Positions 10,637 through 17,667 of a DNA stretch of 64,000 nucleotides are shown here, piece after piece. The translations under genes were made by a program, and so were the position numbers. The notes under the pieces are model-generated. The model had not been told where the DNA came from. It ran no database searches and worked only from the letters and a program-made list of their open reading frames with translations. Source of the DNA: Methanospirillum lacunae (GTDB taxonomy: Archaea > Halobacteriota > Methanomicrobia > Methanomicrobiales > Methanospirillaceae); assembly GCF_003173355.1 (NCBI RefSeq), contig NZ_QGMY01000008.1:248001-312000 (forward strand), given 5' to 3'. Within the stretch, counting starts at the first letter, position 1; every line of letters begins with the position of its first letter.

Positions 10637-12064
10637 ATGGATAAGCCGGTTCAGACTCCTGCTGATGAGCATGAACATTCAAATACCATTCCAGTAATCA
10701 ATCCGGCTACAGGGGAACTTGTTGGAAAAGTGAACAGCGGAACGGCTGGAGATGTGGATGCAGCAGTAACAAGTGCGTCAGAAGCGTTTCCGAAATGGGC
10801 TGTTAAGGATGGAACTGAACGTGCTAAAGTGCTTTTTGGAGCAGCCGCCCTTGTCAGAAGCAGACAAGCAGACCTTGCAAATCTTCTCACCCGGGAACAG
10901 GGAAAACCATTAAAAGAGTCTAAGAATGAGATTGCTGGATTTGCAAAAATTCTTGAATACTATGCCTCGATATCCGGGCTATTAAAAGGTGATTACGGTC
11001 ACTCTTCAGCGTATGGTCATGCGATAGTATCGAGAAATCCACTCGGCGTTTGTGGTGCTATCATCCCATGGAATGTTCCGGCAATTATCATGGGATGGAA
11101 AGTGGGTCCAGCCTTAGCATCCGGGAATGCACTCGTCCTCAAACCTGCAACAACAGCCCCACTGACCTGTATGCAACTAGTAGGATGCCTTGTTGAAGCT
11201 GGTCTTCCCGGCAATATTCTTCAGATAGTTACCGGGCCAGGCCCGGTTGTCGGTGAGGCAATAGCAGAACATCCTGATGTCCGGGCGGTCTCATTTACTG
11301 GTGAGGTTGCAACAGGTAGACGGGTTGCGTCACTGGCGGCCCCGCTCTTTAAAAGAATCACACTCGAACTTGGCGGGAGCGATCCTATGATCGTATGCAA
11401 AGATGCAGACCTTACCGTTGCAGCAAAAGGGGCAGTTGCCGGGAGATTCTTCAACTGCGGACAGACCTGTACCGCAGTAAAACGTTTATTTGTTGAATCA
11501 TCCGTAGAAGAAGAATTTGTCCACAAGCTGGAGACCCTGATCAGGTCCCTTAAAGTTGGCAACGGCCTTGGATCTGATGTTGATATGGGACCGATACACT
11601 CCCTTGCTCAACAACATCTGATATCCGGACAGATTGAACGGACCGTAGATGGTGGTTTTGGCAAGATTACAACCGGAGGAAAAGAGATAGGAGAGGGTGA
11701 CCACACAGGTTTCTTCTTTGAACCGACTCTCCTTTCTGGTCTTGATCCCGAAGCTCCTGTCATGAGAGAGGAGGTCTTTGGCCCTGTTCTTCCAGTCATG
11801 CCGTTTGATTCTCTTGATGACGCTATATCTGCTGCGAATAGCACTCAATTCGGGCTTGGCGCTTCTGTCTGGACTCATGATTCTCGTGTTATCAGCAGGG
11901 CATGCGAAGAGCTGCAGGCAGGTATCGTATGGGTAAATCAGCATCTCAAACTCCCACCTGAAGTTCCCTTTGGTGGAACAAAAGACTCTGGAATTGGCAG
12001 AGAAAACGGCCGTTATGCACTGGACCATTATCTTGAAGAGAAAACAATTCTGATAAAGCCTTGA
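10637..12064 (+). CDS. NAD(P)-dependent aldehyde dehydrogenase
   Basis: ALDH-superfamily enzyme of 475 residues that oxidises an aldehyde to the acid. Signature residues are present: Asn145 (IPWNVP), Rossmann loop FTGEVATG at 220-227, general base Glu244 (LELGG) and nucleophile Cys278 (NCGQTC). Family resemblance is to the lactaldehyde/succinate-semialdehyde group. In methanogens a lactaldehyde dehydrogenase (CofA) makes lactate for coenzyme F420, one possible role; substrate cannot be read from sequence. endonuclease IV follows after only 4 bp, suggesting cotranscription. Confidence 0.88.
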   Translation: MDKPVQTPADEHEHSNTIPVINPATGELVGKVNSGTAGDVDAAVTSASEAFPKWAVKDGTERAKVLFGAAALVRSRQADLANLLTREQGKPLKESKNEIAGFAKILEYYASISGLLKGDYGHSSAYGHAIVSRNPLGVCGAIIPWNVPAIIMGWKVGPALASGNALVLKPATTAPLTCMQLVGCLVEAGLPGNILQIVTGPGPVVGEAIAEHPDVRAVSFTGEVATGRRVASLAAPLFKRITLELGGSDPMIVCKDADLTVAAKGAVAGRFFNCGQTCTAVKRLFVESSVEEEFVHKLETLIRSLKVGNGLGSDVDMGPIHSLAQQHLISGQIERTVDGGFGKITTGGKEIGEGDHTGFFFEPTLLSGLDPEAPVMREEVFGPVLPVMPFDSLDDAISAANSTQFGLGASVWTHDSRVISRACEELQAGIVWVNQHLKLPPEVPFGGTKDSGIGRENGRYALDHYLEEKTILIKP

Positions 12065-12068
12065 TACC

Positions 12069-12926
12069 ATGGTTGTTGCAGGAGTACATGTATCAATAGC
12101 AGGATCTCTTGACCTGGCAGCGAGTCGGGCAAAAGAGCGTGGATGTGACTGTTTCCAGATATTTACGAAAAATCCCCGTGGATGGGCAGCCAAAGAGATC
12201 ACTGAAAAAGACGCTGAAGCATTCAGAAATGCTGTTTCAACTTCATCACTCTGTCCGGTCTTTGCTCATATGCCATATCTTCCAAACCTGGCTTCAGAGA
12301 AACCTGAAATGTATTGCAAATCGGTTGATGCCCTTGTGCTTGAACTAAGCCGGTGCTCTCTTTTGGGCATTCCGTATCTTGTAACTCACCTTGGTCATGC
12401 CGGGGATGATGTCAGACTTGGTCGGGACCGGGTCGTTGATGCTGTACTAAAAGCCTTTGATCAGGATATTCCTGCTGTTACTCTCCTGTTTGAGAACACC
12501 GCTGGTGAACGCAACTCGGTTGGAAGCAGACTGGAAGAGATAGCTGAAGTACTGGATAATGTGGGAGATAAAAACCACACCGGGATATGTTTTGACACCT
12601 GTCATGCATTTGCTACAGGATATGATCTGAGAACTAGTGATACGATTGCAAATGTCGCAAACCAGATAGATGATCTCTTTGGCATATCACGAATCAATCT
12701 CATCCATCTGAATGATGCAAAAGGTGAATGTGGCTCAGGCCTTGACAGGCATGAACATATTGGATGCGGGGCCATTGGGAAGCAGGGTATGGCAGCAATA
12801 CTTCACCATCCGGATTTTTGTAAAATACCGGTAATATGCGAAACACCGGTGGATGATCGGCGCGGCGACGCTGAAAATATCGCTGAAGTACGTCGCCTTG
12901 CAACATCTACCTTTCATGAACTGTAA
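12069..12926 (+). CDS. nfo: Endonuclease IV (AP endonuclease)
   Basis: Zinc-dependent enzyme that cuts 5' to abasic sites in base excision repair. Its 285 residues match the family. GVHVSIAGS starts the TIM barrel, and metal ligands are visible in FAHMPYLPN, VTHLGHAG, LLFENTAG, ICFDTCHAFA, IHLNDAKGECGSGLDRHEHI and VICETP. Starts 4 bp after the aldehyde dehydrogenase stop. Confidence 0.95.
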   Translation: MVVAGVHVSIAGSLDLAASRAKERGCDCFQIFTKNPRGWAAKEITEKDAEAFRNAVSTSSLCPVFAHMPYLPNLASEKPEMYCKSVDALVLELSRCSLLGIPYLVTHLGHAGDDVRLGRDRVVDAVLKAFDQDIPAVTLLFENTAGERNSVGSRLEEIAEVLDNVGDKNHTGICFDTCHAFATGYDLRTSDTIANVANQIDDLFGISRINLIHLNDAKGECGSGLDRHEHIGCGAIGKQGMAAILHHPDFCKIPVICETPVDDRRGDAENIAEVRRLATSTFHEL

Positions 12927-13170: not shown

Positions 13171-15462
13171 ATGAGCAGGATGGGACAGATCAGCCGGGGG
13201 GTAATCCTTCTGGTTGTCATGGGGGCACTTTTTGGGACAATGGCTGCTGCCCAGCCGATAAAAGCACCAGCGGTGATAACCACTCCCGGTGTGTATGAAC
13301 TGAGTGACGATGCCAGGGATATTACTGATATCTATGGTATCCAGATTCAGTGCTCAAATGTGGTAATAGATGGAGCTGGTCATTTCCTTGGTGGTGAGGA
13401 GCGGGAAAAGTCAGCAGGTGTGTTCGTCAATCAGTACGGCGGTTCAATAACCAATGTGACGGTGAAAAATCTCAACCTGGAAAACTGGGAGAGCGGGATT
13501 GATTATACCTATGTAAAAGGCCAGAAGGGCGATTCAAACCTCATCACCAAATGTGATATTGTGAAATGTGATGTGGGCATTCGTGTTGAATACTCAGATT
13601 ATGTCAAGGTTGAGGAGAACCAGCTCCATGACTGCTCATCGGGTGTAGTGGTTGAGGGACTATCAACAAATACTGATCTAAAGAAGAATACCATCAAGGG
13701 TTGTGGCCAGGGAATTAGTGTCACTAACTCGCAAATGACTACTATTGAAGAAAATACCATCAATACCTGCAAGGTTTATGGGGTCGAGGTTACCGATTCT
13801 GAAGGCACTATTGTAAAGAAGAATGGAATCAGCGATAATAAGTATGCAGCATTAAAGATTGAGAACTCAAAGGAATCAGAGGTTAATGGAAATACTCTTT
13901 CTCAAACTGAAGTAGGTCCAGTCCTTATTATCGGTAACGATGTCCATAATGCCGTGATCACAAATAATTACTTCAGTTCATTTGAGAACGTTCTGGTTGA
14001 TGATGTCAGCACCGACATCTCATGGAATACGACCCAGAAACCAGGCACCAACATTCTCGGTGGTCCGTATCTTGGGGGTAATTATTGGGGGTCTGCAGCC
14101 GGTGGTAAGGGATACTCAGATTCAGCGGCAGATAAAGATGGATTTGGTATTGCAGATAAGTCTTACCGGATAAATGATTACAATATCGACTATCTCCCAC
14201 TTACCCACACTACTGCAACCAAGGCTCCAGAAGAACAGGAGATAATTCCTGATGCAAATGTCACTAATACAACCCCTGATACTGCTTCTAATAAAACATC
14301 AGAACCTGAATTAACGCCTGTGAAAGATTCTGAAAAACCATCTATATCAGAAAATATTTCAACAGTCCCCTCAGTGAAGGAATCTTTGACTCCGACACCC
14401 ATGGAAAAACAGATAGAACAAAAAAATGTTACTAACGTCACAAATACTACAAAGTTTGCCAATGTGACCAATGTGACTACTATAACCCCGGTCCTGACAA
14501 TAAATGACTCAATTCTGAATAGATCCGTTGCCAATGGATATCCAACAGAAATCAGCCAGGTACTCCAGGTAGCGGGACCCGTTAATGGTTCCAATACAGT
14601 AGATGCCTTTAAAGTTGGGAACAGATCTTCACAATCTGGAGGATTGAACACCTCTTCAGTAAACCAGTCCTCTGAAAAATTGGATTTTCCTGCACAGAAT
14701 GGATACCTAGTGTTTCTGGTATCAGAGGCAGGTGGCAGGGTGATTCTGACGACCACAACGGGTTCAGAAATAAAACTCGATCCAATGCAGCAGAAGAATC
14801 TGACGGTTCCTGTTCCAGTGGGTGGGTTTGAATACACTACCTACCGTGTTGAAAAAGATGGATATACTCCGGTTTCAGGATCAATCTCACCATATCCTGG
14901 ATCAGGTCAGACAACAACGATCACAGTTTCCCTAACAAAGCACGCCTCTAATGCAACCACTCAGTCTGGACCTCAACCTATCCAAAATGGAGTAAAACAA
15001 TCGGATAAGATAAATTCTACACCAATTTCGAACACTACCGAGCCTTCAATCCAGAAAAATACTTCCGTGTCTTCAGCGAACAAGACTGAATCAGCAACTC
15101 CCTCACATGAAATCAGAAACCAGACTCCGGGTGTAGCCATCATCTCTGCTAATCAGACCCTTATACCGACCGTCAATGCCACACAGCCTCCAACTGTAAC
15201 GGTCGTGGCAAATGGTATCAATCAGACTACATCTTCACAGTTGTCTCATGTTATTGAGGCTTCGGCAGGTCCCGGAGGTTCGATCAGTCCGAATGGTTCT
15301 GTAAGTGTTGAAAATAAAGGAGCCAGTTCATTCATCGTTACAGCTGATGATTCTCATAAGATCTCATACTTGGTGATCGATGGTATCAAAACGAGTCCGA
15401 TGTCCGAATATCGGTTCATTGATGTTACCTCTAACCATACCATTATGGCAGGATTTGCCTGA
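13171..15462 (+). CDS. Secreted right-handed beta-helix (NosD-like) surface protein with PEGA domain
   Basis: Predicted exported protein of 763 residues. A signal peptide (about 1-28) ends near AAAQ. Residues 45-330 contain parallel beta-helix repeats with Asn ladders such as ITNVTVKNL and TIEENTINTC, as in NosD/periplasmic copper-binding-type repeats. A Thr/Ser/Pro/Asn-rich linker (345-505) carries many N-x-S/T sequons, consistent with archaeal glycosylation. A PEGA-like domain (about 508-590: GYLVFLVSEAGG, VEKDGYTPVSG) and a second low-complexity linker follow. The last 75 residues (ASAGPGGSISPNG and HTIMAGFA) are a bacterial InlB-type repeat fold. No C-terminal anchor is visible. The same-strand DAC gene follows after 118 bp. 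Confidence 0.82.
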   Translation: MSRMGQISRGVILLVVMGALFGTMAAAQPIKAPAVITTPGVYELSDDARDITDIYGIQIQCSNVVIDGAGHFLGGEEREKSAGVFVNQYGGSITNVTVKNLNLENWESGIDYTYVKGQKGDSNLITKCDIVKCDVGIRVEYSDYVKVEENQLHDCSSGVVVEGLSTNTDLKKNTIKGCGQGISVTNSQMTTIEENTINTCKVYGVEVTDSEGTIVKKNGISDNKYAALKIENSKESEVNGNTLSQTEVGPVLIIGNDVHNAVITNNYFSSFENVLVDDVSTDISWNTTQKPGTNILGGPYLGGNYWGSAAGGKGYSDSAADKDGFGIADKSYRINDYNIDYLPLTHTTATKAPEEQEIIPDANVTNTTPDTASNKTSEPELTPVKDSEKPSISENISTVPSVKESLTPTPMEKQIEQKNVTNVTNTTKFANVTNVTTITPVLTINDSILNRSVANGYPTEISQVLQVAGPVNGSNTVDAFKVGNRSSQSGGLNTSSVNQSSEKLDFPAQNGYLVFLVSEAGGRVILTTTTGSEIKLDPMQQKNLTVPVPVGGFEYTTYRVEKDGYTPVSGSISPYPGSGQTTTITVSLTKHASNATTQSGPQPIQNGVKQSDKINSTPISNTTEPSIQKNTSVSSANKTESATPSHEIRNQTPGVAIISANQTLIPTVNATQPPTVTVVANGINQTTSSQLSHVIEASAGPGGSISPNGSVSVENKGASSFIVTADDSHKISYLVIDGIKTSPMSEYRFIDVTSNHTIMAGFA

Positions 15463-15580
15463 ACCGGGGTTGGGTACTCAGGTATCCCCTTCTATCCCGG
15501 AGGGGGCGCTTTCCCAAAATATATCTTATAATTCAGCAAAATAAAAAAATCAGGCCTCAATACTGGGTGTTATCTTTATC

Positions 15581-16885
15581 TTGCAAAAAAACGTTATTTG
15601 TACCATGAACCCCTCTCCCTGGTATTGCATACTGTTGGTGCTCCTTCTAGCAGTATCTGCAGTTGGTCAGGGGGAGGCAGTTGACTCTTCTGGCGGGGTT
15701 GTATCAACGCAAGTCACTACACTTGCATCTCTTGAAATTCCTCCCAAAGCAACAGTCAGCACTACGGTCAAAACAACCATAGCTCCGATTCATACTAAAG
15801 AGCCTGTTATTAAACCACCTGTAGATCAGTCGTCTGTTACCCCTTCTGGTACTCCTACCCCAGAAATACCACAGGTCAAACCAACGCCAACAGGTGTAAA
15901 AGCAACAGGAACTCCGGAAGGAAAACTGACCGGAAATCTCAATGATAATGAATCAGCTTCAACTTACTTTCAGTGGGGACGGGCATATGAAGATGCAGGT
16001 GATTATTCTGCCGCTATTGAAGAGTATGACCGTGCTATTGCACGTGAACCCTATTATGCGGATGCCTGGTATCACAAGGCACTCTGTTATGAGAGTCTTG
16101 GTATGTGGGACGAGGCTTATCAGTCATATAGGTTTCTTCTGACAATAGATCCCGGGTATCCTGCAACTGCAAATAGTACGGGTATCAGAGTAAACAATAC
16201 TACTGATCATCGGCCAGTCTCTGCTCCACCTCCTCAAGGTAACCCCCTGATCTGGATTGCATCAGGAGTTGTAATTGCGGGGCTTTTTGCTGCAGGTTTT
16301 GTTCTATATCATCGAAGGAAATTCCTGGAAGCTGTGAAAACAGGTGAAATCTCTATTTCGACCCGTTCACTTCAGACAAACCCGGGACCATTTCCCGATC
16401 TAGATGCTATTGCTGCTGATGTTGAACCCTACTTTACCGGTGATCCAGAAATATTCAAAGTTGTCCTACGGCTCTCACTTGAGATAGCCCGGGAGGGGAG
16501 AGAAGGCAAGCCTGTTGGAACTGCGTTCATCCTCGGAGATAGCAATGCGGTCCTTGAACGATCAAGACAACTGATTCTGAATCCTGTTTCCGGCCATTCT
16601 GAAGAAGACCGGTTGATAACAAACCCTGATATGCGAGAGAATATCAAAGAGTTATCACTCGTTGATGGAGCGTTTGTAATACGGGAAAATGGTATTGTTG
16701 AGGCCGCCGGACGGTATATCTCTATTGATACCAGTGGAGTCACTCTGCCAAAAGGATTTGGGACCCGGCATGTTTCAGTTGCTGCTATCACCCAAGAGAC
16801 CGATTCCCTTGGAATTGTAGTGTCAGAGAGTGGTGGAGTTGTTAGAGTCTTTGCCAAAGGAAAGGTTATCGTTGAAACGATGTGA
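15581..16885 (+). CDS. Membrane TPR protein with C-terminal diadenylate cyclase (DAC/DisA_N) domain
   Basis: Predicted c-di-AMP synthase, 434 residues from a TTG start; an ATG eight codons in (15605) is an alternative. Order: signal peptide or TM (10-30), Thr/Pro linker (35-120), two TPR repeats (126-193: YFQWGRAYEDAGDYSAAIEE), transmembrane helix (223-243) followed by HRRK, then a DAC domain (275-432). DAC signatures are DGA at 362-364 in the nucleotide pocket, GTRHVS at 394-399 in place of the RHR motif, and the strand IVVSESGGVVRVF. By the positive-inside rule the TPRs lie outside and the cyclase inside the cell. Known archaeal DacZ enzymes are soluble with other N-termini, so this would be a receptor-like cyclase. 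Activity is inferred. Confidence 0.8.
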   Translation: MQKNVICTMNPSPWYCILLVLLLAVSAVGQGEAVDSSGGVVSTQVTTLASLEIPPKATVSTTVKTTIAPIHTKEPVIKPPVDQSSVTPSGTPTPEIPQVKPTPTGVKATGTPEGKLTGNLNDNESASTYFQWGRAYEDAGDYSAAIEEYDRAIAREPYYADAWYHKALCYESLGMWDEAYQSYRFLLTIDPGYPATANSTGIRVNNTTDHRPVSAPPPQGNPLIWIASGVVIAGLFAAGFVLYHRRKFLEAVKTGEISISTRSLQTNPGPFPDLDAIAADVEPYFTGDPEIFKVVLRLSLEIAREGREGKPVGTAFILGDSNAVLERSRQLILNPVSGHSEEDRLITNPDMRENIKELSLVDGAFVIRENGIVEAAGRYISIDTSGVTLPKGFGTRHVSVAAITQETDSLGIVVSESGGVVRVFAKGKVIVETM

Positions 16886-17106: not shown

Positions 17107-17667
17107 TTAAAAGGAGATGTCAGGTCTCTTTTCAATATCTTCCCCAGCAAATTCCAGGTACTGAAGTTTGATAAGACCCGCTAATTTCCCGATGAAGTTC
17201 GAGGGGATTGTATCCATCATGGTGTTGAATTGCTCGGCAACGTTGTTTGCTGTATACCTCTGCCTGGCGATTTCATCTTCCACCTGTTTTACCGAGTCCA
17301 TCAGGGATGTAACGGTCTGGGAAGTCTTCAGGTCTGGATAATTTTCCATAACTGCAAAGAGTCTTCCCAGCATAGAGCGCGATTCAGCCTCAATTCCTGC
17401 CAGATCTCCTGCGCCGGCAGATCCAACTGATGCACGCATAGCAGTTACCCTCTCCAGGGTATCTTTCTCAAATGCGGCATATGATTTTACTGCGCCCAGG
17501 AGTTGTTCGATCATATCAAGGCGTTTTTTAAGCGCAACCTTGATCTGTCCCAGTGTAGCCTCATGTGTGTTCTTCAGGCTGAAGAACCGGTTGTAAAGTG
17601 ATACAGCCCAGATAACAAGGCCTATTATTGCCAGTACAACGACACCGGCGACGATTAGGAGGATCAT
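17107..17667 (-). CDS. lemA: LemA family protein
   Basis: Membrane-anchored helical protein of unknown function, 186 residues. One N-terminal helix (2-25) is followed by the LemA signature YNRFFSLKN and long helices, with IVENYP-type VMENYPDLK and YTANNVAEQFNTMMDTIPSN. Divergently transcribed from the kinase gene at 17746, sharing a short promoter region. Confidence 0.92.
   Translation of the reverse strand: MILLIVAGVVVLAIIGLVIWAVSLYNRFFSLKNTHEATLGQIKVALKKRLDMIEQLLGAVKSYAAFEKDTLERVTAMRASVGSAGAGDLAGIEAESRSMLGRLFAVMENYPDLKTSQTVTSLMDSVKQVEDEIARQRYTANNVAEQFNTMMDTIPSNFIGKLAGLIKLQYLEFAGEDIEKRPDISF

Follow-up and report, generated by a model that had tools for sequence, protein, structure and literature searches.

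Diadenylate cyclases (DACs) work as face-to-face pairs that condense two ATP into c-di-AMP, and a change in the geometry of the pair can regulate them. Their product controls the transport of K+ and osmolytes, with RCK_C domains as receptors. To our knowledge, for no organism is the regulation of c-di-AMP synthesis well understood, and in archaea it has hardly been studied. CdaA, a membrane-bound DAC of Firmicutes, carries three short TM helices; its regulators CdaR and GlmM are separate proteins. A survey by Galperin from 2023, 'All DACs in a row', reportedly groups DACs into some 22 families whose N-terminal domains are diverse. In archaea, DacZ of H. volcanii is an active, Mn-dependent cyclase whose gene is essential and could not be deleted (PMC6741144). 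Corrigan and Gruendling (2013) distinguished five classes of archaeal DACs; as cited in PMC6741144, class DacW includes the M. hungatei protein Q2FM57 (Q2FM57_METHJ) and DacX a protein of M. boonei.

The DAC described here is encoded in a stretch of 64,000 nt from a contig of Methanospirillum lacunae (the window; Table 1) and differs from both of these systems. Its DAC domain aligns to positions 122-264 of DacZ/CdaZ (H. volcanii DacZ; M. jannaschii CdaZ/DacY) with E=1.9e-34 and has the DGAF and GTRH motifs in common with a haloarchaeal DacZ. In contrast to DacZ, a Pfam scan of the protein found no N-terminal PK_C-like/DacZ_A domain, and its place is taken by a signal peptide or TM segment (TM1), a linker, TPRs and a second TM segment (TM2). 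With CdaA/DacA it shares a membrane-tethered, C-terminal and presumably cytosolic DAC of similar fold, but it carries one long TPR ectodomain on the same chain, between signal/TM1 and a single TM. Membership of the whole protein in either family was rejected by the curated models: the DacZ equivalog NF041371 gave 119 bits against a cut-off of 430, matching positions 122-264 only, and the CdaA/DacA model TIGR00159 gave 36 bits against 188.8, with the DAC part alone matching. The one DAC of genome G015, which we take to be M. boonei, is a REC-PAS-PAS-DAC, so the DacX representative appears to have this architecture; since this leaves TPR-TM-DAC for M. hungatei, class DacW probably corresponds to the architecture analyzed here. 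A literature search for DACs with TPRs or an external sensor returned nothing relevant. The architecture has likely been catalogued already and, as far as we found, not analyzed; its topology, gene block, linker motif and replacement of DacZ appear to be new.

Table 1. Features of the TPR-TM-DAC locus, with positions in the window.
Feature	Position	Strand	Basis or remark
Aldehyde dehydrogenase (ALDH)	10637-12064	+	member of four-gene block
Endonuclease IV-type TIM-barrel protein (endoIV)	12069-12926	+	member of four-gene block
Secreted NosD/parallel beta-helix protein	13171-15462	+	conserved upstream neighbour; candidate partner
TTTATC, TATA-like element	15575-15580	+	kept about 25-30 nt 5' of the aligned ATG in 8/8 Methanospirillum sequences aligned
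TPR-TM-DAC ORF, receptor-like diadenylate cyclase, 426 aa	15605-16885	+	
Signal peptide/TM1, aa 5-23	15617-15673	+	hydropathy
Linker motif KTTIAPIHTKEPVIKPPV, aa 56-73	15770-15823	+	near-invariance across three genera
Two TPRs, acidic, predicted extracytoplasmic, aa 118-186	15956-16162	+	Pfam; AF2 pLDDT about 91
TM2 (aa about 215-233) and basic stop-transfer YHRRK (to aa 239)	16247-16321	+	hydropathy, charge
Cytosolic DAC domain, Pfam core aa 295-420	16400-16882	+	Pfam; topology predicted
DGA motif, aa 354-356	16664-16672	+	
GTRH motif, aa 386-389 (GTRHVS, aa 386-391)	16760-16771	+	

The sequence-only reading had proposed, at 15581-16885 (+), a signal or TM segment, TPRs, a TM helix with basic stop-transfer residues and a DAC domain with the motifs DGA and GTRHVS, and all of these elements were found by Pfam and hydropathy in a real ORF at this place. 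Only the start has to be moved. A start at TTG 15581 was discarded because the conserved TTTATC directly abuts this codon, and ATG 15605 is the better candidate because TTTATC sits about 25-30 nt upstream of it. The hexamer fits an archaeal TATA box and suggests a separate promoter for the DAC gene and a very short or absent leader. Behind TM1 lies a Thr/Pro-rich stalk (43% Pro/Thr/Ser) that is predicted to be disordered, followed by the TPR segment, which was recognized by Pfam TPR_1 in two stretches (1.3e-12) and by several TPR models above cut-off, and which has N-glycosylation sequons at its edges. The ectodomain between TM1 and TM2 amounts to about 190 aa.

Because orthologues in three genera keep the identical layout, the ORF is not a product of chance. 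Orthologues from eight other Methanospirillum genomes share 54-83% identity, and those from G012 and G017, which represent two additional genera, 38-44% identity with the window protein; the layout and the linker were compared in an alignment of 11 sequences from the three genera. Within the genus, nine genomes encode the full-length protein and G002 has a fragment at a contig end; it was not found only in G005 and G011, both incomplete assemblies in which the contig stops inside the NosD gene and just past endoIV, respectively, short of the place of the DAC. Across 232 genomes of the order, a profile of the N-terminal part matched end to end in 11 places (292-413 bits), with 74 bits for the next best match. 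The named relatives of the N-terminal half belong mostly to Methanospirillum (M. hungatei, M. stamsii), with one Methanospirillaceae MAG, and the DAC domains of the orthologues form one supported group (SH-aLRT 95).

Hydropathy, charge and composition are compatible with a receptor-type layout, in which an external sensor, a TM segment and a cytosolic output are joined on one chain. We consider it reasonably probable that TPR-TM-DAC is a single-chain transmembrane signaling protein that passes an input from the envelope to c-di-AMP synthesis. The signal sequence would direct export of the N-terminal half, placing the Thr/Pro stalk and the small acidic TPR module outside the membrane, where the TPRs may recognize a ligand, either a peptide or a protein. 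TM2 would relay the state of the TPR/stalk module to the cytosolic DAC, and a ligand that alters the geometry of the DAC dimer would tune c-di-AMP synthesis; we infer that ligand-dependent regulation of DAC pairing acts across TM2. Possible cytosolic targets of the c-di-AMP would include cation transporters with an RCK_C domain. The small size of the ectodomain, with its two TPRs, and the disorder of the linker in the model speak against a receptor. As a receptor with its external module on the cyclase chain itself, TPR-TM-DAC would give c-di-AMP an input open to testing; Methanospirillum hungatei JF-1 is a culturable strain. A candidate c-di-AMP receptor is encoded in the same genome, a CPA2-type cation/proton antiporter with an RCK_C (TrkA_C) domain (L132, 58-1731, +).

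The genome (3.74 Mb in 25 contigs) contains two DAC genes, so that the second one that the sequence-only reading had advised looking for indeed exists. It encodes a soluble PAS-PAS-DAC of 532 aa (L002, 1486-3081, -), of which the unassigned N-terminal approximately 130 aa resemble a degenerate receiver domain, and a PAS histidine kinase-like ORF adjoins it on the opposite strand. Canonical DacZ is lacking: profile searches for DacZ_A (PF21754) found no match in 12 of 12 Methanospirillum genomes, and therefore c-di-AMP must come from non-canonical cyclases in this genus. Other families of the order have DacZ proteins of 265-270 aa. The earlier generalization that archaeal DACs are soluble and of DacZ type thus holds for most of the phylum, where in an even draw nearly all DACs outside the order had open frames roughly 200-400 aa long, a length that suits proteins of DacZ size, but it fails in the family of TPR-TM-DAC, in which membrane DACs are common.

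The need for a source of c-di-AMP would also be served by a constitutive, membrane-anchored housekeeping cyclase, the ectodomain of which only tethers the enzyme or gives it a place at the envelope, for instance at septa or the sheath, and which responds to no ligand. The absence of canonical DacZ from the genus, the essentiality of dacZ in H. volcanii (PMC6741144) and the presence of a membrane DAC in all Methanospirillum genomes whose assembly permits judgement would all agree with such a function. We nevertheless regard it as unlikely, since the second, soluble DAC could fill this role and a specific contact is suggested by how strongly the linker motif and the TPR core are conserved. In addition, the occurrence of different ectodomains (PKD, TPR) on related cyclases is the pattern expected of sensor modules.

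In the family and its neighbours, the same DAC type is joined to diverse inputs, namely PKD-TM, TPR-TM, REC-PAS-PAS and TrkH. PKD-TM-DACs occur in several genera of the same family (L021, L043, L047, L049, L053, L055, L058, L060, L063, L066) and consist of a PKD-type ectodomain (tested with Pfam in L021, L043, L047 and L049), a Thr/Pro stalk, one TM and the DAC. REC-PAS-PAS-DACs are encoded at L045 and L028, and single-ORF TrkH-DAC fusions in one Methanomicrobiales family (L068, G038:C6, 1193-3253, +; L080, G053:C99; L187, G066:C144), with 62-67% identity across the junction and one TGA within the L187 match. The latter join a K+ transporter subunit to the synthase of a messenger that regulates K+ uptake. 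The PKD-TM-DAC, TrkH-DAC and REC/PAS-DAC proteins of Methanomicrobiales (L021, L043, L047, L049, L068, L080, L045) have DAC domains related to that of TPR-TM-DAC but differ from it in their input domains, and none was seen beside a NosD block. Two other genera encode a second kind of TPR-TM-DAC with longer stalks (L008, 1483-3096, -; L017, 190-1899, +), in both of which a KPPV motif and a NosD neighbour are absent. AU tests rejected neither a single origin of all TPR-TM-DACs (p 0.52) nor one of all membrane DACs (p 0.435), and for this reason convergence cannot be claimed. TPR-TM-DAC belongs to a broader trend bound to this lineage; this favours its interpretation as a sensor and makes it less unique. 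With its PKD, TPR, PAS/REC and TrkH inputs, this one cyclase type forms a natural series in which the control of DACs can be studied. The third DAC of G023 (L054, 1008-2024, -) is a very divergent soluble protein of 339 aa on a very long branch, with GARH in place of GTRH.

By family and fold, the C-terminal domain of TPR-TM-DAC is a DAC, as the sequence-only reading had claimed. PF02457 (DAC) matched aa 295-420 with 69.6 bits against a cut-off of 27 (E=2.2e-19). The full-length AF2 model reached a pLDDT of only 63 with a shallow alignment of 11 rows, and the DAC domain was therefore modelled on its own from 79 relatives, giving a pLDDT of 93.1 and a pTM of 0.90. In a Foldseek search of the PDB with this model, all 50 of the 50 best matches were diadenylate cyclases of the DisA or CdaA/DacA/DacM type, with E down to 3.7e-7 and TM-scores (query) of 0.51-0.62. 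Cyclase activity is likely because the catalytic motifs DGA and (T/S/G)RH are intact, the residue following the conserved RH is variable and H. volcanii DacZ is active: TPR-TM-DAC keeps DGA, GTRH and SES as well as the invariant residues around them, and D354, G355, F357, G384, G386, R388 and H389 are invariant among the 79 sequences.

A degenerate DAC domain, which would bind a nucleotide or c-di-AMP after loss of synthesis, might be suspected because Val replaces the last residue of the RHR motif of the well-known bacterial enzymes, in which Arg follows RH. However, archaeal DACs vary at this position, with GTRHM in one haloarchaeal DacZ that exceeds the curated cut-off, and the retention of DGA, GTRH, SES and the invariant residues, together with 51% identity to the other DAC of the genome (L002) over the domain, makes a loss of synthesis very improbable.

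The placement of the TPRs outside and the DAC inside the cell, which had been proposed before, is strongly inferred from hydropathy, charge and composition, because TM2 is followed by a C-terminal basic cluster and the N-terminus forms a signal or anchor; the predicted topology is identical for a cleaved and an uncleaved N-terminus. Another arrangement, in which cytosolic TPRs would scaffold cytosolic partners, could draw on the indirect derivation of the topology from hydropathy and charge and on the n-region from ATG 15605, which has no Lys or Arg although its orthologues have Arg there, but it is hardly credible given two hydrophobic segments flanking the TPRs, HRRK after TM2, and a Pro/Thr/Ser-rich linker and sequons around the TPR segment as is typical of exported archaeal stalks.

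Within the presumably external stalk, KTTIAPIHTKEPVIKPPV is near-invariant in the three genera (consensus KxTIAPIxTxEPxVKPPV) while the rest of the stalk drifts. A search of the genome found no motif of this type elsewhere, so that it occurs as a single copy in TPR-TM-DAC, and a repeated surface-anchor signal shared with other proteins was discarded on this ground. AF2 gave no confident placement of the motif on the TPRs (pLDDT <40). Our best guess is that it represents a putative binding site for an envelope partner or makes contact with the groove of the TPRs.

If TPR-TM-DAC acts as a receptor, its most likely ligand would be a component of the envelope, with the secreted beta-helix protein encoded upstream as the leading candidate. 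This protein combines a beta-helix, mucin-like linkers and C-terminal domains that by eye look PEGA-like and repeat-like, and its layout is constant among the orthologues of all three genera. In Methanospirillum, the co-oriented order ALDH-endoIV-NosD-DAC was present in the window and at L095-L099, six loci in all; it recurs at L100 and L101 from two other genera, where the right-hand flanks differ. In addition, C-terminal NosD matches adjoin the DAC in contigs of G004, G006 and G008, and NosD directly precedes the DAC in every relative in which both neighbours are readable. The genes for the surface protein and the cyclase thus travel together. A mere old gene order of the family was discarded as explanation, since the endoIV genes at L174-L182, which come from nine other genera of the family, had neither ALDH nor a NosD-DAC pair as neighbours; at L174, a distant and much larger beta-helix protein is encoded about 2 kb from endoIV.

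The previously suggested link between the cyclase and the beta-helix protein is thereby supported by the gene order in three genera, and the partnership itself would be a further step. Because the conserved block has four genes, it does not single out NosD as binding partner, and the adjacency of DAC and NosD is no more conserved than that to endoIV or ALDH. The TATA-like element of the DAC gene's own also counts against the link, and NosD is no general requirement for a TPR-TM-DAC, since the L008 and L017 proteins lack this neighbour. That NosD is the ligand is speculative, and we rate it as possible rather than probable; another part of the envelope or sheath as ligand is likewise speculative. 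We regard it as doubtful that in Methanospirillum and the two related genera c-di-AMP synthesis has moved from DacZ, the usual soluble cyclase of archaea, to an envelope-reading receptor with a dedicated secreted beta-helix ligand encoded alongside, which, if true, would constitute an archaeal outside-in receptor-ligand pair for a second messenger. On the other side of the DAC gene, and convergent with it, the window encodes a LemA-family membrane protein (17110-17667, -), which is not located beside the DAC in the other two genera and is 75-98% identical across Methanospirillum.
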